Source: an uncultured Pseudomonadota bacterium
GTDB taxonomy: Bacteria > Pseudomonadota > Gammaproteobacteria > Steroidobacterales > Steroidobacteraceae
Direction of reading: 5' to 3'
Length of the DNA stretch: 41,542 nt
NCBI GenBank assembly: GCA_902826225.1
Contig: CADEED010000003.1
Coordinates: 1-41,542, forward strand
Every line of letters starts with the position of its first letter. Position 1 is the first letter of the stretch. Below the pieces are notes generated by a model that had not been told where the DNA came from, did not search any database, and was given only the letters and a program-made list of their open reading frames with translations. The translations under genes and the position numbers were made by a program. Below, piece by piece: positions 21,996 through 40,988 of this stretch.

Positions 21996-24900
21996 TTACC
22001 TGGCGACGTGTCTGGAGAGGGCGGCCCGAAGTTCTGCGAGCTTCGGAGGTTTGCTCAGCACCTGATCCACGCCCGTCGGCACATCGCCCTCGGCGACCAG
22101 ACGCCGCCCCCAGCCGGTGAGCATGAGCACCACGGTCGTGGGGACACTCGACTTGACCGTCGCGGCGACCTTGCGGCCGTCGACGCGTGGCATGCCCAGA
22201 TCGGTGATGACCACGGGAAAAGGGGTGCCGGCCGCGTGCGATTCCACGAAGGCGTTGATGCCCGCCTGGCCGCCGCTCGCCGAGGTGACTTCGTGCCCGT
22301 CGCTCTCGAGCGCGTCGCGCAGGGACTTCAGGAGCATGGGATCGTCGTCGACGATCAGGATCTTCATTGGACCGACGGCGGCGATCTTGCTGCCCGTGAC
22401 TTCGGCCGTCGTCAACGGCGAGACGGCGAATACGAGACGCACGGTCGTGCCTTTGCCGGGCTCGCTCTCGATCTCGAGACTGGCGCCATGTCGCTGGGCG
22501 ATGCCGTACACCATCGCCAGACCGAGTCCCGTGCCACGCACGCCCTTCGTCGTGAAGAACGGTTCGAGGCAGCGCCGGCGCGTCTCCTCGTCCATGCCGA
22601 TGCCGCGGTCGACCACTTCGATCGCGACGATCTGGCCGTCCCTGCCGGCCTCGGCGCGCGTGCGAATCGTCAGCAGACCGCCCTGTGGCATGGCGTCCAC
22701 CGCGTTGAAGACCAGGTTCACGAGTGCGTCGCGGATCTGGCTCTCGAGCGCGGCGATCTTCGGCAGATCGGGGGCCAGCTCGAGTCGCAGGTCGATGGCC
22801 ACGCCGCGCTGCTGGGCCATGTCGGACCAGCGAGCGCGCGTGAGATCGACGACGTGTTCGACGAGGACGTTCAGATCGACCGGCGACAGCGCGATCTGTG
22901 GCTCACGCGCGCGATAGAACTCGCCCATGCGGGCCACGGTCTGCGCGACGTCGTCGACCGCGCGCTGGATGATCTCGAGATGCTTGCGACCGCGCTCGGT
23001 GAGGTTCGGCTCGCGCTCGAGCAGCGACTCGGTGTACAGCGCCATCGGCGAGATGGCGTTGTTGATGTCGTGCGCGATGCCGCTCGCCATCTGGCCGAGC
23101 GCGCGCAGGCGCTCCTGCTGCATGACCTGCTGCTGCGTCATGCGCAGATCGTCGTAGGCGCGCTGCAGGGCTTCGTACAGCTGCGCCTGGTGCGCGGCGA
23201 GCGCGGTATGCTCGCTCGTCTGCCGCAGGAACTCGCACTCGCCGCTGCTGAAGCTCTCGGGCGCGCGCCGGGCGCAGATCAGGATCCCGAACACCTGGCT
23301 CTCGACCAGCAGCGGCGAAAAGGTCATCGCGTGCATGCCGATGCTCGCCAGCCGCGCGGGGAACGGAAATGCCGATCCCGCGATCTCGGGCTCATAGACC
23401 AGTTCGCCTCGCACGCAGCGCGCGAGCCCGTTCTCGTCGATCGGCACGATTGCCGCTTCGGTCAGGCCGATCTGCTGCGCGAGATCCAGGCTGTGCGCGC
23501 CGACGCAGTTGACCGTCAGGCGGTTCTCGCCCATGTCGTAGAGGCACACCATGCACAGATCGACCGGCAGTTCGTCCTCCACCGTGCGCAAGACGACCTG
23601 GAAAATGCTGCGCAGGTCCTGCCGCTCACCGATGGCGTGCGTCACGCGCGACAGCAGCGCGAGGCGGGCCAGTTGCTCGCGCAGGCGGGTCTCGCTGCTC
23701 AGGCGTTCGGTGACGTCGCGGTAGTTGGTCACGATCGCCCCGACCGACGGGTCGTCGAGCAGGTTCGTCGCGACACCTTCGAGCCACAGCCAGCGGCCGT
23801 CCTTGTGACGGCGGCGCCAGAGCACGGGCACCGGCTTGCCGGGGTTCGCGATCATCTCCTCCAAGTACTTCGCGATGCGGGCCTGGTCGTCGGGATGCGT
23901 GTTCTCGGCACCGTTGCGCCCGACGAGTTCCTCTGGCCGGTAGCCTTCGACGGCCGCGACGGCCGGGCTCAGGTAGAGGATGGTGTTGTCGGCGTCGATG
24001 AGCGCGATGCTGTCCGACCCGTGCTCGATCAGCGCGCGGAAGCGGCGCTCACTGTGCGTCAGCGACTCGTTGGCGGCGGCGAGTTCGGCGGTGCGCTGCT
24101 CGACGCGCACCTCGAGCTGGTCACGCGCATCCGCGAGCGCGCGGGCCGCGGCGGCGGCGTCGGTGACGTCCCGCGCGGTACCGTACATGAACGTGCCCTG
24201 CGGCTGCGAGCGCCACGACAGCATGCGGTACTCGCCGTTCTTGTGACGGAAACGCGCTTCGAAATTCGTGACGCGTTCGCCGCGCTGCATCTGCTGCTCG
24301 ACCACCTGCTGAGACCGCTGCCGGTCGTCGGGATGGATGAGCTCCATGTAGCCGGCGTCGAGAAACTCCTCGACGGTGTAGCCGAGTATCTCGGTCACGG
24401 CCTTGCTCGAACGCTTGAAATGACCGTCCCCGCCGCTCGCGATCACGAAGATGTCCAGCGAGAGATCGAAGAAGCGGTTGAGCTCGCCCTCGGCCCGCTC
24501 CCGGCCGGCGAAGTCGCGCCGGATGGCGAACAGCGCGAGGCCCAGCACGATGAGCGCGAGCACGCTGCCACCGACGATGACAGAGCGCGTGACCGACGAA
24601 CTCGCGGCGGTCCGGCGTTCACGTTCGGCGAGCCGCGTGAGTTCCATGCTCCTCATCCGCTGCGCGATATCGCGCACCCGCGCCTGCAGCGTGGGACCCG
24701 GGCGCTGGATGGCCGTGTCGGACTGCACGGCGGCGAACCCGCCGCTACGGCGCAGTTGCATCACCTCGTCCGTGCGCGCCAGCCGGTCGCGAATGGCATC
24801 CGCGAACGACACCACGAGTGCGGACTGCTCGGCGTTGTCGCTCACCGCCAGGCGCAGTTGCTGCAGCAGTCCCTCGACGCGCCCGGTGGCGCGCGTGTAG

Positions 24901-25502
24901 TCGGCGGCGAATTGCTCGTCGCCGGTGATGATGAAACCGCGCTGGGCGCCTTCCGCTTCGGTGGTCGTCGCGAGCAGTCCGTCGATGTTCGCCATGACCT
25001 GGTGCGAATGCGAGACCAGCCGCGAGTCGGTGTCGAGGCGGACTGCGCTCAGGAACGAGACGATGCCGATGGTGCCCAGGATGGCGAGAGCCGCGGCAAA
25101 TCCCATGCGCACCTTGAACTCGGTGGCGGCGGTGTTGCGCTCGACGACTCGTTCGCGCGTCTGCCGCCGGTGGCTCTCGAGCTCGGCGAACAGTACGCTG
25201 ACCAGCACGCCCTCGAGGATCAGGAACAGCCACTGCGCGAAGTAGAGCGGGCTCTCGATGCGCAGGCTGTTGAACGGCGGCAGCACGAACCAGGCGGTCG
25301 TCACGGCGATCAGCGCGGTCGCGAACAAGCCCGGCTTGAGGCCGCCAAGGTAGGCGCTGAGGATGATGGGGATGAGATAGACGATGAAGATCGGACGTTC
25401 GTCGACCCAGGGCGTGAGCCACAGCCTCACGAGCAGGACCGCGGCGGTCAGCAGGATGGCGACGACGTACGGGCGCGCGCGCTGCGCGGAGCGGTCTGGC
25501 AC
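21996..25502 (-). CDS. Multi-domain hybrid sensor histidine kinase (CHASE3-PAS-PAS-GAF-HisKA-REC)
   Basis: This 1168-residue membrane-anchored sensor has several hydrophobic helices at about 12-105, like the KdpD-type DUF4118 region. It continues with a CHASE3-like extracytoplasmic segment at about 150-310, including the typical AEGAQRGFIITGD, and a helix near 315-335. A PAS at about 345-455 (EILGYTVEEFLDAGYMELIH) precedes a coiled coil, a second PAS at about 490-615, and a GAF at about 640-790. A HisKA domain has H811 in GIAHDINNA, and an ATPase domain includes GLGLAMVYGI. The C-terminal receiver has D1101 in ITDLGMP, though its usual Lys lies in LSKPP. It converges on the dehydratase gene with a 10-base gap. 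No partner regulator is adjacent and the signal is unknown. Confidence 0.9.
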   Translation of the reverse strand: MPDRSAQRARPYVVAILLTAAVLLVRLWLTPWVDERPIFIVYLIPIILSAYLGGLKPGLFATALIAVTTAWFVLPPFNSLRIESPLYFAQWLFLILEGVLVSVLFAELESHRRQTRERVVERNTAATEFKVRMGFAAALAILGTIGIVSFLSAVRLDTDSRLVSHSHQVMANIDGLLATTTEAEGAQRGFIITGDEQFAADYTRATGRVEGLLQQLRLAVSDNAEQSALVVSFADAIRDRLARTDEVMQLRRSGGFAAVQSDTAIQRPGPTLQARVRDIAQRMRSMELTRLAERERRTAASSSVTRSVIVGGSVLALIVLGLALFAIRRDFAGRERAEGELNRFFDLSLDIFVIASGGDGHFKRSSKAVTEILGYTVEEFLDAGYMELIHPDDRQRSQQVVEQQMQRGERVTNFEARFRHKNGEYRMLSWRSQPQGTFMYGTARDVTDAAAAARALADARDQLEVRVEQRTAELAAANESLTHSERRFRALIEHGSDSIALIDADNTILYLSPAVAAVEGYRPEELVGRNGAENTHPDDQARIAKYLEEMIANPGKPVPVLWRRRHKDGRWLWLEGVATNLLDDPSVGAIVTNYRDVTERLSSETRLREQLARLALLSRVTHAIGERQDLRSIFQVVLRTVEDELPVDLCMVCLYDMGENRLTVNCVGAHSLDLAQQIGLTEAAIVPIDENGLARCVRGELVYEPEIAGSAFPFPARLASIGMHAMTFSPLLVESQVFGILICARRAPESFSSGECEFLRQTSEHTALAAHQAQLYEALQRAYDDLRMTQQQVMQQERLRALGQMASGIAHDINNAISPMALYTESLLEREPNLTERGRKHLEIIQRAVDDVAQTVARMGEFYRAREPQIALSPVDLNVLVEHVVDLTRARWSDMAQQRGVAIDLRLELAPDLPKIAALESQIRDALVNLVFNAVDAMPQGGLLTIRTRAEAGRDGQIVAIEVVDRGIGMDEETRRRCLEPFFTTKGVRGTGLGLAMVYGIAQRHGASLEIESEPGKGTTVRLVFAVSPLTTAEVTGSKIAAVGPMKILIVDDDPMLLKSLRDALESDGHEVTSASGGQAGINAFVESHAAGTPFPVVITDLGMPRVDGRKVAATVKSSVPTTVVLMLTGWGRRLVAEGDVPTGVDQVLSKPPKLAELRAALSRHVAR

Positions 25503-27336: not shown

Positions 27337-28737
27337 ATGACGCTGCCCGTTGTCACCCGTTTCGCCCCGTCGCCCACCGGCCTTCTGCACATCGGGGGCG
27401 TGCGCACGGCGCTCTTCAGCTGGCTCTATGCGCGGCGCATGCAGGGCCAGTTCATCCTGCGCGTCGAGGACACGGACGTCGAGCGTTCGTCGTCCGAAGC
27501 GGTGAAGGTGATTCTCGAAGGCATGGCATGGCTCGGCCTCGATCACGACCAGGGACCGTTCTACCAGACGCAGCGATTCGATCGATACAAAGGGGTCATC
27601 GCCGAGATGCTGACGGCGGGCACGGCGTACCACTGCTACTGCTCGAAGGAAGAACTCGACGCCATGCGCGCGGACCGGAAGGCGCGAAAGGAAAAGCCCC
27701 GATACGACGGCCGCTGCCGTCATGGCAAGGGTCCGGGTGCCGCGAGCGGCCGCCCGCCGGTCGTGCGCTTTGCCAATCCGGAAACCGGCGCCACCGTCGT
27801 GGAGGACGTGGTGCACGGGCAGGTCACGTTCCAGAACACGGAGCTCGACGACCTCATCATCGCCCGCTCGGACGGCACGCCGACGTACAACTTCTGCGTG
27901 GTCGTGGACGACGCCGACATGGGCGTCACGCACGTGATCCGCGGCGACGACCACCTCAACAACACGCCCAAGCAGATGAACATGCTGCTCGCGCTCGGCA
28001 AGACGCCGCCGGTGTACGCGCACGTGCCGATGATCCTGGGCGCCGACGGCGCGAAGCTGTCGAAGCGCCATGGCGCGGTGAGCGTGCTCGAGTACCAGGA
28101 GCAGGGCTATCTACCGGAGGCGCTGCTCAACTATCTCGTGCGGCTCGGCTGGTCCCACGGCGACCAGGAGTATTTCACGCGCGAGGAGATGATCGCCGCG
28201 TTCGACGTGCGCGAGATCAACAAGGCCGCCTCGGCGCTGAACCCCGAGAAGATGCTGTGGCTCAACCAGCAGCACCTCATGAAGGCGCAGCCCAAGGACG
28301 TGCTGCCGCACCTGCGCTGGCACCTGGCGCGCCTCGGCATCTTCTCCCAGGACGAAGCGCTGCTCGAAGGGATCATCCTCGCGCAGCGCGAACGCTCGAA
28401 GACGCTGAAGGAGATGGCGGAAAACAGCCGCTTCTTCTTCGGCGATGACATCTCGCTCGATCCGAAGGCAGCGGACAAGCACCTGACGGCCGATGCCAAG
28501 GTGCTGTTGAAAGACCTGCGCGCGCGGTTCGCGGCGCTCGAGGACTGGGCTGCACCCGCGATTCACGCCGTGCTGGAAGGGCTCGCGCAGGAGAAGACGC
28601 TGGGGTTGGGCAAGGTCGCGCAGCCGCTGCGCGTCGCCGTGACCGGCGGGACCGTGTCACCGCCGATCGATGCGACGCTCGCGCTCCTGGGCCGGGAGCG
28701 CACGCTCAAACGCCTCGACCTGATCGTCGGGACGTGA
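27337..28737 (+). CDS. gltX: Glutamyl-tRNA synthetase
   Basis: This 466-residue class I synthetase charges tRNA-Glu with glutamate. The class I HIGH motif appears as HIGG at 18-21 in RFAPSPTGLLHIGG, and the KMSKS motif as KLSKR at 240-244. The length is typical of bacterial GluRS. The C-terminal anticodon-binding domain is complete and ends LLGRERTLKRLDLIV. The ATG is about 100 bases from the divergent tRNA-Val gene. It converges on the Ig-lipoprotein gene with an 18-base gap. A tRNA-Glu gene lies 2 kb downstream. Confidence 0.97.
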   Translation: MTLPVVTRFAPSPTGLLHIGGVRTALFSWLYARRMQGQFILRVEDTDVERSSSEAVKVILEGMAWLGLDHDQGPFYQTQRFDRYKGVIAEMLTAGTAYHCYCSKEELDAMRADRKARKEKPRYDGRCRHGKGPGAASGRPPVVRFANPETGATVVEDVVHGQVTFQNTELDDLIIARSDGTPTYNFCVVVDDADMGVTHVIRGDDHLNNTPKQMNMLLALGKTPPVYAHVPMILGADGAKLSKRHGAVSVLEYQEQGYLPEALLNYLVRLGWSHGDQEYFTREEMIAAFDVREINKAASALNPEKMLWLNQQHLMKAQPKDVLPHLRWHLARLGIFSQDEALLEGIILAQRERSKTLKEMAENSRFFFGDDISLDPKAADKHLTADAKVLLKDLRARFAALEDWAAPAIHAVLEGLAQEKTLGLGKVAQPLRVAVTGGTVSPPIDATLALLGRERTLKRLDLIVGT

Positions 28738-28755: not shown

Positions 28756-30267
28756 CTACTGGATGAACTTGGTGGCGAGATTCGAGATCTCGCTCGTCAC
28801 GCCGCGCGCGTTCACCGCGTAGACGGCGAAGTACCACTGGCCGGCCGACAGGTTCTCGACACGGAACTGCGAGAGGCCGGCGTTGTTCACGTTCGCGGTC
28901 TGGTCGAGCGTCGACGCGGAGCGTCCGTAGACCACGCGGAAGCCCGTGAGGTCGGAGAGGGCGCTGCCGTCGGTATTCGTCGTCGGGATCTGCCAGCGCA
29001 CGACGGCGTCGCCGGTCGCATTTTGCAGCACCACCAGCGAGAACGCGGGCAGCGAGGTGATGGCCGTGCCGTCGGACACGGAGATCGTGACGTTGGCCGT
29101 CGTGCCCACGTCCGCGAGCGTCGGCGTACCCGAGAGGCGGCCGTTCGCGGTGTTGAACGTGGCCCAGCTCGGACGGTTCTGGATGCTGAAAGTGAGCGTG
29201 TTGCCGTCCGGATCGGAGGCTGTCGGCTGGAAGTCGTAGAGCACCGCGATCAGTACCGAAGTCAGCGGGCTGCCCGAGATCACCGGGGGGCGATTCGCGG
29301 CGGCGCCGACCTGGATCGTGAACGAAGGCAGCGATGCGGTGGCCGTGCCGTCGCTGACCGAGATCGTGATGCGCGCGCTGGTGCCGACGTTCGCGCTCGT
29401 GGGAGTGCCCGTGAGGCGGCCCGTCGTCGCGCTAAACGTGGCCCACGCCGGGCGATTCTGGATCGTCCAGGTGAGCGTGTTGCCGTCCGGATCGCTGGCC
29501 GTCGGGCGGAAGCTGTAGGCGGTGCCGGCCGTCGCGGTCGTGGCGGGCGTGCCGGAGATCGTCGGCGCGCGGTTGGGCGGCGGCTGCGACGGCGCCGTGG
29601 CCACCTGCAGGTTGAACGCCGGGAGCGAGACCGTCGTCGTGCCGTCGCTGACGCTGATCAGGATGTTCGACGTCGTGCCGACGTTCGCGCTGATCGGCGT
29701 GCCGCGCAGCTCGCCGGTGGAGGTCGAGAAGGTGGCCCACGACGGACGGTTCTGGATGCTGAAGGTGAGCGTGTCGTCATCGGCGTCGTCGCCGGTCGGC
29801 ATGAATGAGTACGTCTGTCCCACGGTCGCGGTGGTCGCCGGTGTGCCCGTGATGGTCGGCGCCGAGTTGCCGCCGCCCGGGGGCGGGTTGTTGATGGCGC
29901 TCGCGACCTGGATGCGGAACCCGGGCAGCTGCGCCACCGCCTGCGCGTCCGAGACTTCGACAGTGATCATTCCCGACATGCCGACGTTCGCTTCGGCCGG
30001 GGTGCCGGAGATGGCGCCCGTGGTCGCGTTGATCGACGCCCAGGCCGGGAGGTTCGAGGCAGAAAAGGTGAGGGCGTCGCCGTTCGGGTCGGCGGCCGTC
30101 GGGGTGAACGTGTAGTTGGAGCCGGCGACGACGGTGGTCATCGGCGTACCAGAGATGATCGGCGGCAGATTGTCGCCCGTGACGAGCGTGTCGGCCTCGT
30201 TGCCGCAACCCGCGAGGGCGACGGACGAGACGATGAATACCGCGATCTTTCTGGCGTCAATGCGCAT
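28756..30267 (-). CDS. Surface lipoprotein with four Ig-like repeats and a fibronectin-III-like end
   Basis: This 503-residue predicted lipoprotein has a signal peptide ending in the lipobox LAGC with C21, and the next residue is Gly, compatible with outer-membrane sorting. Four cadherin-like/He_PIG-type Ig repeats lie at about 35-121, 136-222, 234-320 and 327-412. Each carries a recognisable core such as PTISGTPATTATAG, SDPDGNTLTF, RPSWATF, GTP and ISVSDGT. A fibronectin-III-like domain occupies about 418-503 (GFRVVYGRSASTLD, WYFAVYAVNARGVTSEIS). Repeats 2 to 4 are so alike that recent duplication is plausible. No enzyme domain is seen; adhesion or matrix binding is inference. AAGGA precedes the ATG by eight bases, and a c-di-GMP-I riboswitch match lies about 80 bases further upstream. 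Confidence 0.87.
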   Translation of the reverse strand: MRIDARKIAVFIVSSVALAGCGNEADTLVTGDNLPPIISGTPMTTVVAGSNYTFTPTAADPNGDALTFSASNLPAWASINATTGAISGTPAEANVGMSGMITVEVSDAQAVAQLPGFRIQVASAINNPPPGGGNSAPTITGTPATTATVGQTYSFMPTGDDADDDTLTFSIQNRPSWATFSTSTGELRGTPISANVGTTSNILISVSDGTTTVSLPAFNLQVATAPSQPPPNRAPTISGTPATTATAGTAYSFRPTASDPDGNTLTWTIQNRPAWATFSATTGRLTGTPTSANVGTSARITISVSDGTATASLPSFTIQVGAAANRPPVISGSPLTSVLIAVLYDFQPTASDPDGNTLTFSIQNRPSWATFNTANGRLSGTPTLADVGTTANVTISVSDGTAITSLPAFSLVVLQNATGDAVVRWQIPTTNTDGSALSDLTGFRVVYGRSASTLDQTANVNNAGLSQFRVENLSAGQWYFAVYAVNARGVTSEISNLATKFIQ

Positions 30268-30344
30268 TCGTTCGGTCCTTCAAGAGAAACTCAGTAATCG
30301 CTGGACCGGACGGACGGATGCGGAATGACGAAGGCCGCGCAGCG

Positions 30345-30436
30345 CGCGTCTTTCGGCAACCCCGCTATCTCGAGCCATTCGCTCCAGACCGGAAGCTTTG
30401 CGTCCCCGCCTCACGACGGGTATGCCCTTGCTCTGG
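30345..30436 (-). ncRNA. Cyclic-di-GMP-I (GEMM-I) riboswitch
   Basis: On the minus strand, the core reads AAGGGCATACC, then CCCGTC-GTGA-GGCGGG (a stem with a GNRA tetraloop), GGGACGCAAAGC, TTCCGG, and finally ATAGCGGGGTTGCCGA. These blocks, in this order and spacing, match the GEMM-I aptamer, including the invariant GGACGCAAAGC and the closing TAGCGGGGTT(A/G)CCG of the Vibrio Vc2 example. It lies in the leader of the Ig-lipoprotein gene, about 80 bases before its ATG. The expression platform is unclear: a GC-rich hairpin follows but has no U tract, so it could act on transcription or translation. Confidence 0.87.
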
Positions 30437-30574
30437 AGCACAGTAGAACCGGCGTTTTGCGTTCCGGCAACGTGTCACCAGCCGCAGACATGGGAAAACT
30501 CGGGTCTTGGGTAATGCGTGATGTCACGCAGCGGCCCAAAAAGCGCGCACTGTGACGCAGTCGCTTTTGTTTGC

Positions 30575-30617: not shown

Positions 30618-30693
<76 letters not shown>

Positions 30694-30706
30694 ATTTTTG
30701 AGTCCT

Positions 30707-30782
30707 GTCCCCATCGTCTAGAGGCCCAGGACATCGCCCTTTCACGGCGGTAACGGGGGTTCGAATCCCCCTGGGGACGCCA
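30707..30782 (+). tRNA. tRNA-Glu (anticodon TTC)
   Basis: The cloverleaf is complete. The acceptor stem is GTCCCCA/TGGGGAC, the anticodon stem TCGCC/GGCGG encloses CTTTCAC with anticodon TTC, and the T-loop is TTCGAAT. The discriminator G and CCA are encoded. It starts 13 bases after tRNA-Ala and is probably processed from the same transcript. Confidence 0.97.
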
Positions 30783-31125: not shown

Positions 31126-32529
31126 ATGAAGATCCGACTTCTCAACCAGTATCTGAACCTCTCACTGGCGCTGCTCGCAGCGTTCGAGACGGCCCTGATA
31201 TTCCTGGCGCCGGTGTCGGCCGAGATCATCGTGTACGGCCGGTCGTTGGGTGGCCTGCTCACGAACTGGGCCTTCTTCCTGCCGAAGTTCCTGTTCTTCA
31301 CACTGGCGGTGGGGCTGTCCCTCACCGCGATGGGTTTGTACAACTCTCGCCAGCGCGCGCGCACGCTGGGGCTGCTGCTGCGCGCGCTCGTCGCGCATGC
31401 GCTCGCGATGGCGCTGGCCGCGCTCGGTGCGTACTTCATCCCGGCGCTGCGTCCGCAACCGGGCGAGCTCTTCGTCTGGACCCTCGTGTCCATGGTCTTC
31501 ATCACGATCATCCGTGTCGTCGAGGGGGCGCTGCTCGACGAGGATGCGTTCAAGCGGCGCGTGCTCGTCTTCGGCGCGGGCCAGCGCGCGCAAAGCCTGT
31601 CGCAACTGCGCCGGCGCGCCGACCAGCGCGGCTTCCTCGCCGTGGGCTACATGCAGGCGCTCGGCGAACAGGTGCTCGTCGATCGCGACAAAGTGCTGAC
31701 GTCCGATGCGCAGCAGCTCAAGCAGGTCGCGAAAGACCTCGCCGTCGACGAGATCGTGATCGCGATGGACGACCGGCGCCGTGAATTCCCGGTACGCGAG
31801 CTGCTCGATTGCCGCCTGTCGGGCGTGGAAGTCATCGACCTCGTGAGCTTCCTCGAGCGCGAAACCGGGCGCGTCCACCTCGACGTGCTCAATCCGAGCT
31901 GGATCATCTTCGCGGACGGCTTCCGCCGCGATGGCCTGCGCCAGGCGACCAAGCGCGCGTTCGACCTCGTCGCCTCGTTCGCGCTCGTGCTCATCACCTG
32001 GCCGTTGATGCTGCTCACGATGCTGGCGATCAAGTTCGAAGACGGCCTGCGTGCGCCGGTGTTCTATCGCCAGCATCGCGTGGGACTGGACGGCAAGGAC
32101 TTCGCGCTGCTCAAGTTCCGCAGCATGCGCGTCGACGCGGAACGCGACGGCAAGGCGCGCTGGGCGCTGGGCGAGGATGACCGCGTCACGCGGGTCGGCA
32201 GGTTCATCCGCAAGGTGCGCATCGACGAACTGCCGCAGATCTTCAACGTCCTGCGCGGCGACATGAGCTTCGTCGGTCCGCGGCCCGAACGACCGCAATT
32301 CGTCGGGCAGCTCTCGGAATCCATCCCTTACTACCAGGAGCGGCATTGCGCGAAGCCCGGGATCACGGGCTGGGCGCAGATCTGCTATCCCTACGGCGCG
32401 TCGGAAAAGGATTCTCTCGAGAAGCTGCAGTACGACCTGTACTACGTGAAGAATCACAGCCTGCTGTTCGACCTGATGATCCTGCTGCAGACCGTGGAAG
32501 TGGTCCTGCTCGGCAAGGGCGCCCGGTAG
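31126..32529 (+). CDS. XrtA-associated exopolysaccharide sugar-phosphate transferase
   Basis: This 467-residue polyprenyl glycosylphosphotransferase would start repeat-unit synthesis by placing a sugar phosphate on undecaprenyl phosphate. Several membrane helices occupy about the first 125 residues. A nucleotide-binding-like CoA_binding_3 domain follows at about 140-255 (RRVLVFGAGQRAQSL). The C-terminal catalytic domain at about 270-465 has a membrane helix, VFYRQHRVGLDGKDFALLKF, RVGRFIRKVRIDELPQ, the core SFVGPRPERP, and KPGITGWAQI. The arrangement matches the glycosyltransferase tied to PEP-CTERM/XrtA loci. It opens the cluster and ends 13 bases before prsK. Confidence 0.92.
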   Translation: MKIRLLNQYLNLSLALLAAFETALIFLAPVSAEIIVYGRSLGGLLTNWAFFLPKFLFFTLAVGLSLTAMGLYNSRQRARTLGLLLRALVAHALAMALAALGAYFIPALRPQPGELFVWTLVSMVFITIIRVVEGALLDEDAFKRRVLVFGAGQRAQSLSQLRRRADQRGFLAVGYMQALGEQVLVDRDKVLTSDAQQLKQVAKDLAVDEIVIAMDDRRREFPVRELLDCRLSGVEVIDLVSFLERETGRVHLDVLNPSWIIFADGFRRDGLRQATKRAFDLVASFALVLITWPLMLLTMLAIKFEDGLRAPVFYRQHRVGLDGKDFALLKFRSMRVDAERDGKARWALGEDDRVTRVGRFIRKVRIDELPQIFNVLRGDMSFVGPRPERPQFVGQLSESIPYYQERHCAKPGITGWAQICYPYGASEKDSLEKLQYDLYYVKNHSLLFDLMILLQTVEVVLLGKGAR

Positions 32530-32542
32530 CGCACGCCGTTCG

Positions 32543-34566
32543 ATGGCTCTGCTCGGCATCACCGGCTACACCCTGGCGACGATCGCCTGGCTGGTGCTCG
32601 GCGTGCTCCTCGCGATTGCGATGCGACGCGCGACGTCCGCAGCCGCGCGTCGCCTGCTCCTCGCGGTGGCGATTTCGGTGGCCTGGTCGGCCGTGCTGGC
32701 GCTGGCCGATTCCCGCGTCCGCGTGCCGGCGCTGGTCGTCGCCGGGTTCGAACTGGCGCGCGGGGCCGCCTGGCTCTACGTGTTGCTCGGCATCGCGCCC
32801 AACGTCATGCCCCGGCTGCTCGCGCCGATCGCGTGGGGATTGTTCGCCGTCTGGGCGATCGCGTGCTTCGCCTGGCATTCCGTCGCGGGCGCACTCGCGG
32901 CCGGCGGCATCATGTTCGCGCTGCTGCTGCTGCTCGTGGTCGAGCAGCTTTACCGCAATTCGGGCGCGAGCGCGCAGCGCAGCCTCAAGTACCTGGCTCT
33001 CGGCATCGGCGGGCTCGCCACGTTCGACCTCTTCATGTACGCGCAGGCGCTGCTGTTGCGCGGCCTCGACGCCGTCACCTGGGACGCGCGCGGCTACGTG
33101 AGCGCGATGCTCGTGCCATTCCTCGCGCTGGGCGCGCGCCGGCTGCCGGACACCGACCTGCGCGTGTTCGTGTCGCGGCAGGCCACGTTCTACACGACGA
33201 CGTTCCTGGCGGCCGGTCTCTATCTACTGGTGATGGCGGCCGCGGGCTATGCGATCCGCCGCCTCGGCGGTGACTGGGGCGAGGCTGTGCGCGCGCTGTT
33301 CCTGGTCGGCGCGTTCGCCGTGCTGATCGCGCTCATGACGTCTGCCGTGCTGCATCGCCGGCTGCGCGTGTTCCTGAGCAAGCACTTCTACGCGAACAAA
33401 TACGACTATCGCGTGGAATGGCTGCGCTTCTCGAAGACGTTGTCGGGCAGCGACGAACCGGACGTGTACTGCGCGAGCGTGCACGCCGTCGCGCAGGCTC
33501 TCGATTCTCCGGCGGGCCTGCTGTTCCTGCGCGACGACTCGGGCCGGCGATTCGTGCCCGCCGCGGGCTGGCCGGTGACCCCCGCGGGACTCGGCCAGCC
33601 GGCGCCCGTCGCGCAGGACGACGACATGATCGCCTTCCTGCAGCAGCGCCGCTGGATCATCGACCTCGTCGAGCGGCGCGCGAAGCCCCTGCGCTACGAC
33701 GGCGTCGCCGTGCCGCCGTGGCTCGACGCCGATCCGCGGCTGCGCATCGTCGCGCCGATCTTCCACCTCGACGCGCTCGTCGGCTTCTTCGTCCTGCACG
33801 ACCCGCCGCCGCCCTTCGAGCTGGCGTTCGAGGATCGCGACCTGCTCCAGATGATGGGCCAGCACGTCGCGACGCTGCTCGCGCAACATGCCTCGGACCA
33901 GCGCGTGAGCGAACTCAGCCAGTTCGAGACCTACAACCGCCTGACCGCCTTCCTGATGCACGACCTCAAGAACTGCGCGGCGCAGCTGTCGCTCGTGGTC
34001 GGCAACGCGGTCAAGCACCGCCACAACCCGGAATTCATCGATGACGCGATCGCCACGATCGCCAACACGTCCGAGCGGATCACCCGCCTCATCGAGCAGT
34101 TGCGGCGGCGCGGCGCCGAGGCGCGCGTCTATCCACCCGTCCACCTGGCCGAGGTGATCTCGCTCGCGGTCGAGCGCTGCAAGGGCCGGCGGCCCGTGCC
34201 GACGTTCGTGAACGAGGCACAATGCCGGTGCATGGTCGCCGCGGAGCGCGAGCAACTCGCCACCGCCATCGAACATGTGCTACGGAATGCACAGGATGCG
34301 ACCTCCGAAGCGGGTATGGTGAGCGTCGACGTCGCGAATGCCGGCGGGCAGGTGCGGCTCACCGTGCGCGACGACGGAGTCGGCATGGACGAAGAGTTCG
34401 TGCGTCAGCAATTGTTCCGTCCATTTCACAGTACGAAGGGATCGAAGGGCATGGGGATCGGCGCCTACCAGGCGCGCGAGCTGGCCCGAAGTCTGGGGGG
34501 AGACGTGGAAGTCGAAACTCGACCGGGCGCAGGAACGCGCTTTTCATTCATTCTGCCGGTGGCCTC

Positions 34567-34570
<4 letters not shown>
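32543..34570 (+). CDS. prsK: XrtA/PEP-CTERM system histidine kinase PrsK
   Basis: This 675-residue membrane histidine kinase has about eight hydrophobic helices in the first 280 residues and a GAF-like domain at about 305-445. The HisKA-type helix has H473 in FLMHDLKNCAAQLS, and the ATPase domain has EHVLRNAQDATSE, DDGVGMDEEF and KGMGIGAYQAREL. The layout is that of PrsK, the sensor of PEP-CTERM exopolysaccharide loci. It would phosphorylate PrsR, whose GTG start overlaps the prsK stop by 4 bases (GTGA). The signal is unknown. Confidence 0.92.
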
Positions 34571-35933
<1,363 letters not shown>

Positions 35934-35937
<4 letters not shown>

Positions 35938-37427
35938 TCGACGGCGGCGGCACCCTCAAGTCGGCGCTGCCGCTCGCGCGCGCGCCGGTCTCGGCGGGGC
36001 GGGTCGTCGTGGGGCGCTCCATCGCGACGATCGTGATCCTGCTCGGCACGTTCGTGGCGCTGTGGCCATCGACGGCCGCGCTCACCGTGCGCTGGGCCGA
36101 TACCGTGAGCCGCGCCTACACGCACGGTTCGCTCATCCTGCTGCTCGCCTGCGTGCTGTTGTGGCGACGGCGCGCGTCCGCCGCGGCGCTGCCCGCGCAG
36201 CCTTCGTGGCCCGCGGCCGCGGCGACCGCGATCCTCGGACTGCTGTGGCTGGTGATGTATCGCGCCGGCATCGAGATCGGGCACCTCGCCCTGCTGCCGC
36301 TCATCGTCGCGGGCACGATCGCCACGGTGTTCGGTTCCGCCATCCTGCGCGCATTGTGGCTGCCGGTCGCCTATCTCTACTTCACGATCCCGCTGTTCGA
36401 TGCGATCAACCCGCTGCTGCAATGGGCGTCGGCGTTCGCGGTCGGTGGCTTCCTCAACGTCGTGGGCATACCCGTCTACTTCGACGGGCTCGAATTCCAG
36501 ATCCCGGCGGGGCGTTTCGAGATCGCCGACGGCTGCAGCGGTCTGCATTTCTTCATCGTCGGCCTGTCGATCGCGACGCTGTACGGCGAATGGCACTTCG
36601 ACACCTGGCGGGTTCGCCTCCGCCTGCTCGTGCTGGCCGCCGCCATGGCGCTGCTCACGAATTGGGTGCGCATCTGCATCATCATCGTCGCGGGCCACGT
36701 GACCGACATGCAGCATCACCTGGTCAGCGAGGAGCACTACACCTTCGGCTGGTTCCTCTTCGCCGGCATGATGGCTATCTACTTCCTGATCGTGCGCCGC
36801 TGGGCGGCACCCGAACCCGCGCCGGTTCCCGCGGCGCCGGCCGCCGGCGCACGCGCCGCGCCCGTCGCCGGCGTCGTGCTCGCGTGCGCGGCGCTCGCCG
36901 TGCCCGCGATCGCACCGCTGGCGGACGACAACACCGCGCCGGCCGATCGCGCCGCCGGGTTCGCGCCGAAAGACCCCCCGGGCTGGACGCGCGGGCCCGC
37001 GCCGGCGAACGCGCCGGTGTTTCGCAACGCGGATGCCGCGAGCGCGGCCGGGTACGTTCGCGACGGCGCTGCGGTGCAGGCGTTCAGCGCCGTCTACCTC
37101 GCGCAGTCCCAGGGCAAGGAATTCTCGGGGTTCGGCAACGAGCCGCTCGGCGAGGGATTCCGGCAGGCGTCGGCCTTCGTGCCGGACGGCGACTGGCTCG
37201 AGGCGCGCGCCACGGACGCCGCGCGCGACCCGTGGCTCGTGCGCATTCGCTACCGGATCGGGCACACCGCGTTCACCGGCCTGCGCCGCGCGCAGCTCGA
37301 GTATTCAGTCCGTTCGATCGTCGACGACCCGCTGTCGTCGGTCACGGTGCTGCGCACGCGCTGCGCCGCGGACGATTGCGCGTCCGCGCGTCCGCTGCTC
37401 GATCGATTCACCCGGGAGATGCCGTGA
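35934..37427 (+). CDS. xrtA: Exosortase A fused to an EpsI-like domain
   Basis: This 497-residue inner-membrane protein is a transpeptidase-like sorting enzyme for PEP-CTERM proteins. The exosortase part (about 25-290) has around eight membrane helices and the three conserved catalytic residues: C201 in ADGCSGLHF, R246 in NWVRI and H255 in VAGH. Residues about 300-497 form an extracytoplasmic EpsI-like domain (GWTRGPAPANAPVFRNAD, AVYLAQSQGKEF, WLVRIRYRIG). In many genomes EpsI is a separate gene; XrtA variants with the domain fused are also known. The ATG overlaps the prsR stop, and its stop overlaps the prsT start (GTGA). Confidence 0.93.
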
Positions 37428-40192
37428 AGAAACTGGGCCTCATCGTCTGCGTCGTGCTCGCGCTGGCCGGCTGCGACCGATTCCGGAGCGCCGAGTCGCG
37501 CGTGGAGCGCGCCCGGGAATACGTCGAGAAGGGCGATCCGCGCGCCGCGGTCGTCGAACTCATGAACGCTCTCAAGAAAGAGCCGGACTCCGCGTCCGCG
37601 CGCATCCTGCTCGCGGAGACCGTGCTGTGGCTCGGCGATCCCGCCGGTGCGCAGCGCGAACTCGACCGCATCAAGGCGCCGCGCGACGCCCGCCGCGCCC
37701 TGCTGGAGGCGCGCATCGCGAACCAGCTGGGCCGTCCCGCGGACGCCGTCAAGGGGCTGAACGAGGCGGGCCTCACGTTTCCGCCGGGACTGCGCGAGCT
37801 CGAGCTGGGCCGTGCCTACCTGCGACTCGGCCAGGCGACCGACGCGCAGCGATCGTTCGAGGCCGCGGCCGCCGCCGACGGCAAACTCTCCGCGGCACGC
37901 GCCGGCGTCTTCGATGCGCGCGCGCTGGGAGGCGACGAACCCGGCGCGCTCGCGGGGCTCGAGCGGCTCACGCGGGACGAACCCGCGTCCGCATCGGCGT
38001 GGTTTTCGCTGGGTCTCCTGCGTGTCACGTCGGGCGACATCCCGGGCGCCTCCGAGGCCCTCGCGCAGGCCGACAGGCACGCCGCGACGCAGCTCGACTA
38101 CCTGCAGCGCGCGACGCTGCTCGCGATGCTCGCCGAGACGCAGCTGCTCGAGAGCAAGCTCGACGCGGCCCGCGCCACCCAGCAGTCGCTGGCGAGACTC
38201 GCGCCCGACGCGCTCGGCTCGCGTTACGTGGCGGCGCGCATCGCGATGGCGAGCAACGACTACACCGCCGCCGTTGACCAGCTGCGCAAGATCCTGAAAT
38301 CCTCGCCGGACCTGCAGCAGGCGCGGCTCATGCTCGGCATGGCGTTCGTCGCGCAGGGAAATCTCGAGCAGGCGAGCCGTGAGCTCACGGAGCTCGTCGG
38401 CCGCGCGCCGGACAACGTGCAGGCGCGGCAGCTGCTCGCGCAGGTGCGCATGCGACTCGACGATCCGGATGGCGCCCTGCGCATGCTCGTGCCCACGCTC
38501 GGCGGCGGCAGCGCGCCCGAGGTCAACGCGCTCATCGACGCCGCGCGTTCGCAATTGGGCGCCGCGCAATCCGTGTCGCTGCTCGAGCAGATGCTCGACA
38601 AGGAACCCGCCAACGACTCCGTGCGCACCCAGCTCGCGGCGGCCTATCTACAGGCCGGCACGCCGGCGAAGGCGGTGGAGTTGCTGCGCAAGGGTGGCGA
38701 TTCGCCCGACGCGCGCCGCGCCGCGGTGCTCGTGAGCGCGATCGGCGCCACGCAGGGCTCGCCAGCGGCGCGCTCGCAGGTCGACGCGTTGATCGCCGCG
38801 CATCCCGGCGACACTCAGTTGGCGCAGCTCGCCGCCACCTTCTACCTGCGGCAGCGCGATTCGGGCGCCGCGCGTCGCACGCTCACGAACGCGCTCGCCA
38901 GGGGTGGCGATCCCAAGGTCCTGCTGCTCGCACTCGCCCAGGTGGAATGGGCGGCGCGCAACCGCGCCGCCGCCGCCAGCGCGCTCGCCCAGCTGCTCGA
39001 ACGCGATCCGGGCAACACCGCCGGCCACACGGCGGCGGGCGAGGTGGCTCTCGCCGGCAACGACCTGCCGGCCGCGCGCGGCCACTTCGAGGCGGTGCGC
39101 AAGGCGCGGCCCGAATCGCTGGACACTCGCCTGAAACTCGCGCAGGTGGCGCTCGCCCAGTCCGACGCCAAGTCGGCAGACGCCATCATCGACGAGGCGT
39201 TGAAGGTGGCCCCGAAAAACGCGGCGATCCGCAACCAGGCAGGCATCCTCAATCTCAACTACGGCCGCCCGGATCGTGCACTCGAGATGTTTCGCGCCGC
39301 CGTCGAACTCGACGCGGAATCGCCGATCGGCTGGTTCAACCTCGCGCGCACGCAGCGCACGCTCGGCCAGGCGGGTGCCGCGCGTGACTCGCTGCAGAAA
39401 TCGCTGGCGAAGGATCCGAACTGGTTGCCCGCCGTTGCGGGCCTGGTGGCGCTCGACATCGAGGCGCACCAGCCGGACCAGGCGCTGGCGCGCGTCGCGG
39501 CGCTGCAGAAGGCCGATCCGAACAACGCGGCCGCCCGCGTGCTCGAAGGCGACGTTTACGGCGCCGTGCAGCGATACGCGGACGCCACGACGGCATACGG
39601 CAAGGCCTACGAGCTCGCGCCGCAGGTCGCGATCGCGCTCAAGGACTTCCGCGTGCGGACGACCGGCAACCTGCCGAATGCCGTGCAACTGCTCGAGCGC
39701 TGGAGCGCCGCGCATCCGGACGATCTCGAAGCGCGCAGCGCGCTCGCCGACGCGGCGCTGCGCCGCAAGGACTTCGCGAAGGCCGCGGCCCAATACCGTG
39801 CGCTGCTCGCGTCGCGACCGAACGACGTCGTCACGATGAACAACCTCGCCTGGGTCTATCAGCAGACCGGTGACCCGCGCGCGCTGCCGCTCGCGCGCGA
39901 GGCCGTGAAGCTCGCGCCCAAGTCCACCGCGATCAACGACACGCTGGGCTGGATGCTCGTCGAGGGCGGGGCGCCCGCCGAGGGCCTGCCTTTCCTCGCG
40001 GTCGCCGCGGCCGCGCCCGATGCCACCCCGGATATCCGCTTCCACCATGCCGTGGCGCTGGCCCGCACCGGGGCGACCCAGGAGGCCCGGCGGAGTCTGG
40101 AAAGCCTCCTGCGGGCGCCCGATTTCGGAGCCCGATCCGAGGCGGAAACCCTGCTCCGCCAGCTCGCGAACGGCGCTCCGGCCGGGGGCTGA
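37424..40192 (+). CDS. prsT: XrtA/PEP-CTERM system TPR lipoprotein PrsT
   Basis: This 922-residue lipoprotein has the lipobox LALAGC with C17, followed by Asp, which may favour inner-membrane retention. The mature protein is almost entirely TPR-like helical repeats, for example REYVEKGDPRAAVVELMNAL, GRPDRALEMFRAAVELD and AFEAAAAADGKL. The size and neighbours fit PrsT, thought to be a scaffold for polysaccharide assembly. Translation probably begins at GTG 37424, overlapping the xrtA stop by 4 bases, because the lipoprotein signal begins exactly there. The upstream open frame is a shadow of xrtA. Confidence 0.92.
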   Translation: MKKLGLIVCVVLALAGCDRFRSAESRVERAREYVEKGDPRAAVVELMNALKKEPDSASARILLAETVLWLGDPAGAQRELDRIKAPRDARRALLEARIANQLGRPADAVKGLNEAGLTFPPGLRELELGRAYLRLGQATDAQRSFEAAAAADGKLSAARAGVFDARALGGDEPGALAGLERLTRDEPASASAWFSLGLLRVTSGDIPGASEALAQADRHAATQLDYLQRATLLAMLAETQLLESKLDAARATQQSLARLAPDALGSRYVAARIAMASNDYTAAVDQLRKILKSSPDLQQARLMLGMAFVAQGNLEQASRELTELVGRAPDNVQARQLLAQVRMRLDDPDGALRMLVPTLGGGSAPEVNALIDAARSQLGAAQSVSLLEQMLDKEPANDSVRTQLAAAYLQAGTPAKAVELLRKGGDSPDARRAAVLVSAIGATQGSPAARSQVDALIAAHPGDTQLAQLAATFYLRQRDSGAARRTLTNALARGGDPKVLLLALAQVEWAARNRAAAASALAQLLERDPGNTAGHTAAGEVALAGNDLPAARGHFEAVRKARPESLDTRLKLAQVALAQSDAKSADAIIDEALKVAPKNAAIRNQAGILNLNYGRPDRALEMFRAAVELDAESPIGWFNLARTQRTLGQAGAARDSLQKSLAKDPNWLPAVAGLVALDIEAHQPDQALARVAALQKADPNNAAARVLEGDVYGAVQRYADATTAYGKAYELAPQVAIALKDFRVRTTGNLPNAVQLLERWSAAHPDDLEARSALADAALRRKDFAKAAAQYRALLASRPNDVVTMNNLAWVYQQTGDPRALPLAREAVKLAPKSTAINDTLGWMLVEGGAPAEGLPFLAVAAAAPDATPDIRFHHAVALARTGATQEARRSLESLLRAPDFGARSEAETLLRQLANGAPAGG

Positions 40193-40331
40193 TCAAAGGT
40201 CGACCGCATCACGCTTTTGCCGGTGGGGGGCGGCGATGGCGCCCCGGGTCCGGAGGGGACTCTGTTACGCTTGCGACCGGTTTTTTTCCTGCGCTTTCGG
40301 GCGCTTGGGTCGCTTGGGCCACCATAACTCC

Positions 40332-40988
40332 ATGAAATTCGCGCTCTCCTTCGCCGTGCTCGCCTGGACTTCCGTCGGCCTCGCCCAGGAGACGCCGCCG
40401 GCGGCTGCCCCGGGAACCCCGGCGCCCGCTGCAGCACCCGCCACGACGACGACGACGACCGCGCCGCTGTCGCAGACCGTGGGCCCGAATTACATCGTCG
40501 GACCCGGCGACTCGCTGCAGATCTTCGTGTGGCGCAATCCCGAGCTGACCACCACCGTGCCCGTGCGTCCCGACGGCAAGATCACGACGCCGCTCGTCCA
40601 GGACATGGTCGCCGTCGGCAAGACGCCGTCGCAGCTCGCGCGCGACATCGAGATCGTGCTCGCCGAGTACATCCGCTCGCCGCAGGTCAACGTGATCGTC
40701 GCGATCCCGGTGAGCGCGTTCAGCCAGGTCAAGGTCATCGGTGAGGTGCGCACGCCGCAATCGCTGCCGTACCGCGAAGGCATGCGCGTGCTCGACGCCG
40801 TCCTCGCGAGCGGCGGTCTCGGCGAATTCGCCGCCGGCAACCGCGCGAAGATCGTGCGCAAGCAGGAAGACGGCAAGAACGTCGAACTCAAGGTCCGCGT
40901 CGGCGACCTCGTGAACAAGGGCGCCATGAAACACAACCTCGAGCTGCGTCCCGGCGACGTACTCGTGATCCCGGAATCGAGATTCTGA
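40332..40988 (+). CDS. Exopolysaccharide export protein of the XrtA locus (Wza-like)
   Basis: This 218-residue outer-membrane polysaccharide export protein has a signal peptide of about 19 residues (MKFALSFAVLAWTSVGLA), not a lipobox, then a Pro/Ala/Thr linker to about 50. A Poly_export domain follows at about 55-140 (YIVGPGDSLQIFVWRNPEL, VPVRPDGKITTPLV) and then an SLBB-like region (FSQVKVIGEVRTPQSLPY to LELRPGDVLVIPES). It is shorter than Wza, as usual for this group. The 139-base gap upstream, with a GGGGCG/CGCCCC hairpin (40227-40245) and a tandem CGCTTGGG pair (40302-40319), may hold its own promoter. Its stop shares a base with the next ATG. Confidence 0.92.
   Translation: MKFALSFAVLAWTSVGLAQETPPAAAPGTPAPAAAPATTTTTTAPLSQTVGPNYIVGPGDSLQIFVWRNPELTTTVPVRPDGKITTPLVQDMVAVGKTPSQLARDIEIVLAEYIRSPQVNVIVAIPVSAFSQVKVIGEVRTPQSLPYREGMRVLDAVLASGGLGEFAAGNRAKIVRKQEDGKNVELKVRVGDLVNKGAMKHNLELRPGDVLVIPESRF

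Follow-up and report, generated by a model that had tools for sequence, protein, structure and literature searches.

A c-di-GMP-I riboswitch ahead of a predicted Ig-domain surface lipoprotein in a Steroidobacteraceae-type bacterium, and the palindrome and promoter-like pair that recur upstream of it

The window, by which we mean the whole stretch of 41,542 nucleotides analysed here, comes from a Steroidobacteraceae-type gammaproteobacterium whose genome comprises 3.99 Mb in 194 contigs. On its minus strand a single predicted lipoprotein gene is preceded by a leader, and the features of the locus and its neighbourhood, in window coordinates, are as follows.

27337-28737, plus strand: gltX, the downstream neighbour, convergent to the lipoprotein gene
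28756..30267, minus strand: lipoprotein gene, 503 aa, with a lipobox LAGC (Cys21), four He_PIG domains and a C-terminal fn3-like domain (Pfam; model pLDDT 88)
30268..30351, minus strand: 84-nt stretch from the aptamer to the start codon, presumed to be the expression platform (predicted fold)
30352..30436, minus strand: c-di-GMP-I (GEMM-I) aptamer (RF01051 match and 18/18 consensus pairs)
30442..30470, minus strand: promoter-like pair TTGCCG - 17 nt - TCTACT (conserved in letters and spacing among same-genus leaders)
30473..30490, minus strand: palindrome TGTC-N10-GACA (TGTCTGCGGCTGGTGACA), presumed operator (leader comparison)
30618-30782, plus strand: tRNA-Ala/tRNA-Glu, the upstream neighbours, divergent from the lipoprotein gene
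31126-40988: XrtA/PEP-CTERM exopolysaccharide locus (glycosyltransferase, PrsK, PrsR, exosortase, PrsT, export protein)

Since gltX is convergent downstream and the two tRNA genes are divergent upstream, the unit holds one gene, and here the original prediction of a one-gene unit between gltX and tRNA genes is borne out. It had also placed the unit close to exopolysaccharide and pilus-control loci; the first of these is the XrtA/PEP-CTERM locus, whereas no pilus-control gene was found among the window's open reading frames in a scan that covered part of them. The pilus link of this host lies on a different contig, where the second of the genome's two RF01051 matches precedes pilM. The window also holds, at 21996-25502 on the minus strand, a large hybrid sensor kinase with DUF4118, CHASE3, several PAS, GAF, HisKA, HATPase and receiver domains.

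The 503-residue product matches He_PIG (PF05345) in four stretches (159.2 bits against a cut-off of 24, E 3.6e-47), and residues 414-493 match fn3 with 23.1 bits, just below the Pfam cut-off of 25. A lipobox-like LAGC with Cys21, read by eye, stands near the N-terminus, so that the product is predicted to be a bacterial lipoprotein, and the claim of a lipoprotein with four Ig-like repeats directly behind the leader holds, with a gap of 84 nt. An AlphaFold2 model built from 18 sequences has a mean pLDDT of 88 and a pTM of 0.37, with the domains individually confident, and its best Foldseek matches in the PDB are adhesion receptors built of successive Ig, fn3 and cadherin domains (whole-chain TM-scores near 0.2, a likeness of shape only). 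The model suggests a rod of sandwich domains and is silent on the binding partner; we infer that the protein reaches the surface and adheres, which makes it a candidate adhesin. Such proteins are abundant in databases: 7345 of 7995 scored proteins match it at E 1e-3 or better, and the names given by the sources among the matches listed are only "putative Ig domain" or "hypothetical". Two shorter paralogues in the host genome (contigs C64 and C16) have no aptamer in their 1.5-kb flanks.

The aptamer itself is an ordinary member of the known c-di-GMP-I family. The covariance model RF01051 matches the minus strand at 30436-30352 over its full length (model positions 1-87) with 64.6 bits against a gathering score of 35 (E 1.6e-10). 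The blocks that had been predicted from the letters are all present and in the correct order, namely GGGACGCAAAGC, a 6-bp stem with a GUGA (GNRA) loop and TAGCGGGGTTGCCG, and all of the 18 consensus pairs checked are standard. The related subtype c-di-GMP-I-GGC (RF03167), recognised by GACGCGAA in place of GACGCAAA according to the model consensus, was rejected for the window, where the best match is RF01051; it was likewise rejected as a subtype switch in relatives, two of whose aptamers (L053, L040) are assigned to RF03167 by cmscan yet carry GACGCAAA. Taken as a whole, the leader is no more stably folded than its shuffles (z 0.25); the RNA is therefore supported by the family match and by comparison with relatives, and not by folding energy.

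The GEMM-I fold is shared with GEMM-Ib riboswitches, which sense 3',3'-cGAMP, and the Geobacter metallireducens switch ahead of pilM is described as answering cGAMP (PMC9262584). That system resembles the present host's second site in having a GEMM-I fold ahead of pilM; its cGAMP response and its terminator are its own, and its gene differs from that of the window (PMC9262584). A G20A change shifts GEMM-I toward cGAMP, according to PMC6274999. At the position that governs this selectivity, placed by eye with the help of PMC6274999 and PMC9262584, the window aptamer has G and not A. Of the 30 parsed aptamers that precede homologues of the lipoprotein (the FN3/He_PIG class), 29 likewise have G at the corresponding nucleotide, 5' of the conserved GC. 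We therefore take the ligand to be c-di-GMP, and consider a cGAMP sensor at this locus very improbable. At least 8 of 14 pilM leaders, including that of the host (L001, G000:C2), hold a promoter-like TTTAAC...ATATAG between aptamer and pilM, and pilM may thus also have a promoter that bypasses its riboswitch.

The pairing of aptamer and lipoprotein gene recurs. A survey of 59 genomes including the host found RF01051 matches in 49 of them, 214 in total and 96 within the family; 135 of the 214 were examined (a further 15 of the best 150, all outside the family, were left out), among them 82 of the 96 in the family, the other 14 being weaker matches. Among the 135, 31 aptamers ahead of 30 genes precede a homologue of the lipoprotein; three sit at contig ends. 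Within the family, 30 of the 82 examined aptamers do so, in 22 of 31 genomes, which makes these genes the largest target class. The others among the 135, each class named from one representative, are SPOR-domain proteins (16), M23 peptidases (15), PilM (15), thioredoxin-like proteins (8) and FAD/ALO proteins (7). Conversely, 29 of 68 homologue ORFs in the family have a same-strand aptamer within 1 kb upstream, where aptamer density would lead one to expect about 0.02; eight further family homologue ORFs, none with an aptamer, stand outside this count, which becomes 29/76 if they are included. The aptamer is therefore common ahead of such genes and not obligatory, and the 39 of 68 without a listed aptamer count against the cassette.

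The same comparison of leaders bears on whether the window aptamer is a relic that has lost control of its gene. Homologues without an aptamer exist, as such a reading would expect, but the core and its pairs are retained over many genera: across 29 aptamers of the FN3/He_PIG class, standard pairs fill 517 of 522 pair cells, and a manual count finds changes on both sides at 8 of the 18 pairs. The relic reading is barely credible in view of this. In the closest relatives the core had been expected to persist wherever the gene is kept, and this is true of the same-genus genomes G001 and G003, in which an orthologue was found; in G002, which is 67% complete, the orthologue was not found, and other homologues are present, one of them with an aptamer. 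The order tRNA-tRNA-aptamer-gene is identical in G001, G003, G035, G016 and the named MAG L147. A point against the cassette is G007, whose homologue in the same tRNA-flanked place has no aptamer between tRNAs and gene; in that genome an aptamer lies behind the homologue, ahead of a lipoprotein ORF truncated at the contig end. The other relatives found are Steroidobacter and further MAGs, for the most part gammaproteobacterial, including one that carries the label Seleniivibrio. Tandem aptamers precede the gene in eight genomes belonging to a single genus (G006, G030, G198, G199, G205, G206, G208, G209), and two aptamers in a row would sharpen the response.

The regulatory stretch extends beyond the leader originally described, to 30490. 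Same-genus leaders share a common stretch ahead of the aptamer, and across the class it reads as the palindrome TGTC-N10-GACA, then TTG, then T[T/C]TACT 17 nt past the TTG hexamer, with the aptamer a few nucleotides on; this module pattern occurs once in the window. Among the 28 FN3/He_PIG leaders tested (the other 3 of the 31 do not extend far enough upstream), the palindrome is exact at the expected place in 12, has one mismatch in 1 and has at least three mismatches in 15. Elsewhere it is exact in none of 14 PilM, 11 SPOR, 6 thioredoxin-like and 3 unclassified leaders, in one of 70 other leaders and in 0.09% of shuffled leaders; the single leader among the 70 belongs to a DUF1800 lipoprotein gene (L105, G008:C300) with the same module and an aptamer. 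A palindrome in the host's pilM leader (G000:C2:62507-62524) was taken as chance because the other 13 pilM leaders checked lack it. The bare TGTC-N10-GACA was discarded as a regulon marker in the host genome: it occurs there 44 times and its reversed pattern 15 times, which makes it too loose.

Searches with the whole module were more telling. Its strict form, which excludes the window site (T before GACA), gave eight matches in 36 genomes, the set used to define the module, against none for the reversed control, and all eight precede a known aptamer. A relaxed form gave 31 matches in 26 of 217 family genomes, against one for the reversed control, and 28 of the 30 that could be tested precede a c-di-GMP-I aptamer. 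Eleven of the 31 are known leaders and 20 are new loci; of the latter, 13 have an aptamer within 10 nt, four have one 112-192 nt away (L187, L188, L197, L198), two have none (L180, L183) and one (L181) runs off its contig. In genomes outside the defining set, with G030 excluded since its leader was already known when the module was defined, 16 of 18 testable matches precede an aptamer and 17 of the same 18 precede a homologue of the lipoprotein (16 by search, L188 by reading the translation), the remaining one, L180, preceding a phosphoesterase with a He_PIG domain. At L183 (1501-1980, G133) the module lies 42 nt ahead of an fn3 lipoprotein gene and there is no RF01051 match. Across 296 genomes of the order, 207 of them outside the family by manual count, there was one match outside it (G048, with a three-base gap) against four in the reversed control, so the module is a trait of the family. 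One genome (G105:C70) has two complete cassettes about 1.07 kb apart (L179 and L196), each comprising the palindrome, an aptamer and a short gene for a lipoprotein.

Of the 31 matches, 28 have a 17-nt spacer in the promoter-like pair and 25 have C directly after TTG. The second base of the -10 element, although left free in the search, is T in 22 matches and C in the other 9. A generic sigma-70 promoter scan of the leader did not report the pair at 30442..30470, because base 2 of its -10 element is not A. A sigma-54 promoter was also considered and rejected, as GG-N10-GC is absent at the right place in the few leaders inspected by eye.

The palindrome TGTC-N10-GACA is a presumed operator, to which we infer that a protein binds. 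The outer bases and their spacing are those of the PpsR and QseF sites described in PMC3949515 and PMC8745638, which belong to other genes in other bacteria, so that the likeness is a lead only. PrsR, whose gene lies in the window together with prsK, was rejected as the regulator on account of a motif mismatch: the PrsR site of PEP-CTERM genes is described with a motif ending in TTTACA and a -24/-12 promoter, and misfits the palindrome (PMC1569441). A different reading leaves the riboswitch as described and sees in the palindrome either a component of a promoter of unusual type or a remnant of the leaders' common descent. In its favour are the fixed distance between palindrome and promoter-like pair, the restriction of the module to one bacterial family, the 15 of 28 leaders without a palindrome and the fact that no regulator was found; against it, the letters between the half-sites are highly variable (the eight outer bases being fixed by the search), and the module also stands ahead of the two aptamer-less He_PIG/fn3 genes L180 and L183, which argues that it is not merely carried along by the aptamer. 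We regard this reading as rather unlikely.

Between aptamer and start codon a terminator scan reported no terminator-like site. The Shine-Dalgarno sequence AAGGA at 30276-30280 lies inside a predicted hairpin, in which CGGUCC (30303-30308) pairs with GGACCG (30273-30278) and can sequester the Shine-Dalgarno region; the two observations together favour control at the ribosome site. The direction of the switch is less easily read. For 29 of the 31 leaders, constrained folds computed with and without the aptamer imposed point in no common direction (two aptamers were unparsed, and the rule that picked the start codons may have erred for some leaders). That of the window shows a weak lean toward OFF, its start codon being unpaired at 0.29 with the aptamer free against 0.04 with it enforced. 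In genome G026 (contig C72), two homologues (L099:878-953 and L045:1282-1360) have an in-frame ATG that overlaps the last aptamer base and is followed by a good signal peptide; were it the start, the ribosome site would fall within the aptamer, and an OFF switch would be predicted for these two genes.

These last two points speak for the same cassette with the opposite sign, in which c-di-GMP closes the ribosome site and the lipoprotein falls, as would serve a motile or detaching state; the lack of a consistent sign over the 29 leaders speaks against it. Surface adhesion is usually raised by c-di-GMP, and it is for this reason, and because the nearest tested adhesin parallel, Bc2, is ON, that ON was chosen here. 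In Bacillus thuringiensis, Bc2 is reported as a class I ON switch ahead of the repetitive adhesin gene cap/cbpA (PMC4933901, PMC7423583), and the likeness to the window is that of a class I c-di-GMP switch ahead of a repetitive surface adhesin gene. Bc2, however, works by terminator and anti-terminator and governs an LPXTG-anchored protein with 17 Cna_B repeats, whereas the window has no terminator, a He_PIG-repeat lipoprotein and an upstream palindrome. In other species c-di-GMP-I switches act both ways, and the class I switches of Clostridioides difficile are OFF (PMC6366702), a further point for the opposite sign, which we hold to be unlikely without dismissing it.

Our preferred reading, put forward tentatively, is of a one-gene cassette in which a regulator at the palindrome sets transcription and c-di-GMP at the aptamer raises translation of a predicted surface adhesin. 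If the promoter-like pair is a promoter, the RNA would start at about 30435, roughly the first aptamer base, and the aptamer would form the 5' end of the message. There c-di-GMP would bind, its occupancy of the aptamer would act at the ribosome site, and translation of the lipoprotein would change with c-di-GMP, probably upward, so that the predicted adhesin would be made according to a signal for settling. The host's second riboswitch, ahead of pilM, counts in favour of the cassette; counted against it are the 15 of 28 leaders without a palindrome, L180 and L183 without an aptamer, the empty result of the generic promoter scan, a leader no more stable than its shuffles, the weak OFF lean in folding, the occurrence of both signs among c-di-GMP-I switches of other species and the failure to find a regulator.

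The kind of riboswitch is known already, as is a c-di-GMP-I switch ahead of a repetitive surface adhesin in Bacillus. The window shares with other RF01051 riboswitches the sequence core, the pairs and the position in the 5' leader, and differs from them in its He_PIG/fn3 lipoprotein target and in the fixed palindrome-promoter module upstream. The protein type is not known as a described target, and among the matches listed in a literature search that took in few subscription journals and no supplements, we found neither He_PIG/fn3 lipoproteins as c-di-GMP-I targets nor a fixed palindrome ahead of a c-di-GMP-I aptamer. The comparison of homologous leaders that had been proposed along with the prediction thus returned a pairing that recurs across the family, together with a conserved palindrome and promoter-like pair.

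Proteins with He_PIG/fn3 repeats abound, and that they form the largest examined class of c-di-GMP-I targets in the family offers a handle on their function, which would be tied to c-di-GMP and through it, probably, to settling. The palindrome-promoter-aptamer module could serve directly as bait for its regulator, and it is a natural system that combines an input at the DNA level with another at the RNA level, for which L183 (G133), a module without an aptamer, is a natural control. More speculatively, and with less assurance than the cassette itself, we suggest that Steroidobacteraceae-type bacteria may possess a dedicated switch with two keys, a TGTC-N10-GACA regulator and one or two c-di-GMP-I aptamers. 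If this is true, the regulator would gate the transcription of almost only Ig/fn3 surface lipoprotein genes and the aptamers would gate their translation, which would amount to an AND gate over a large undescribed class of c-di-GMP-controlled adhesins.
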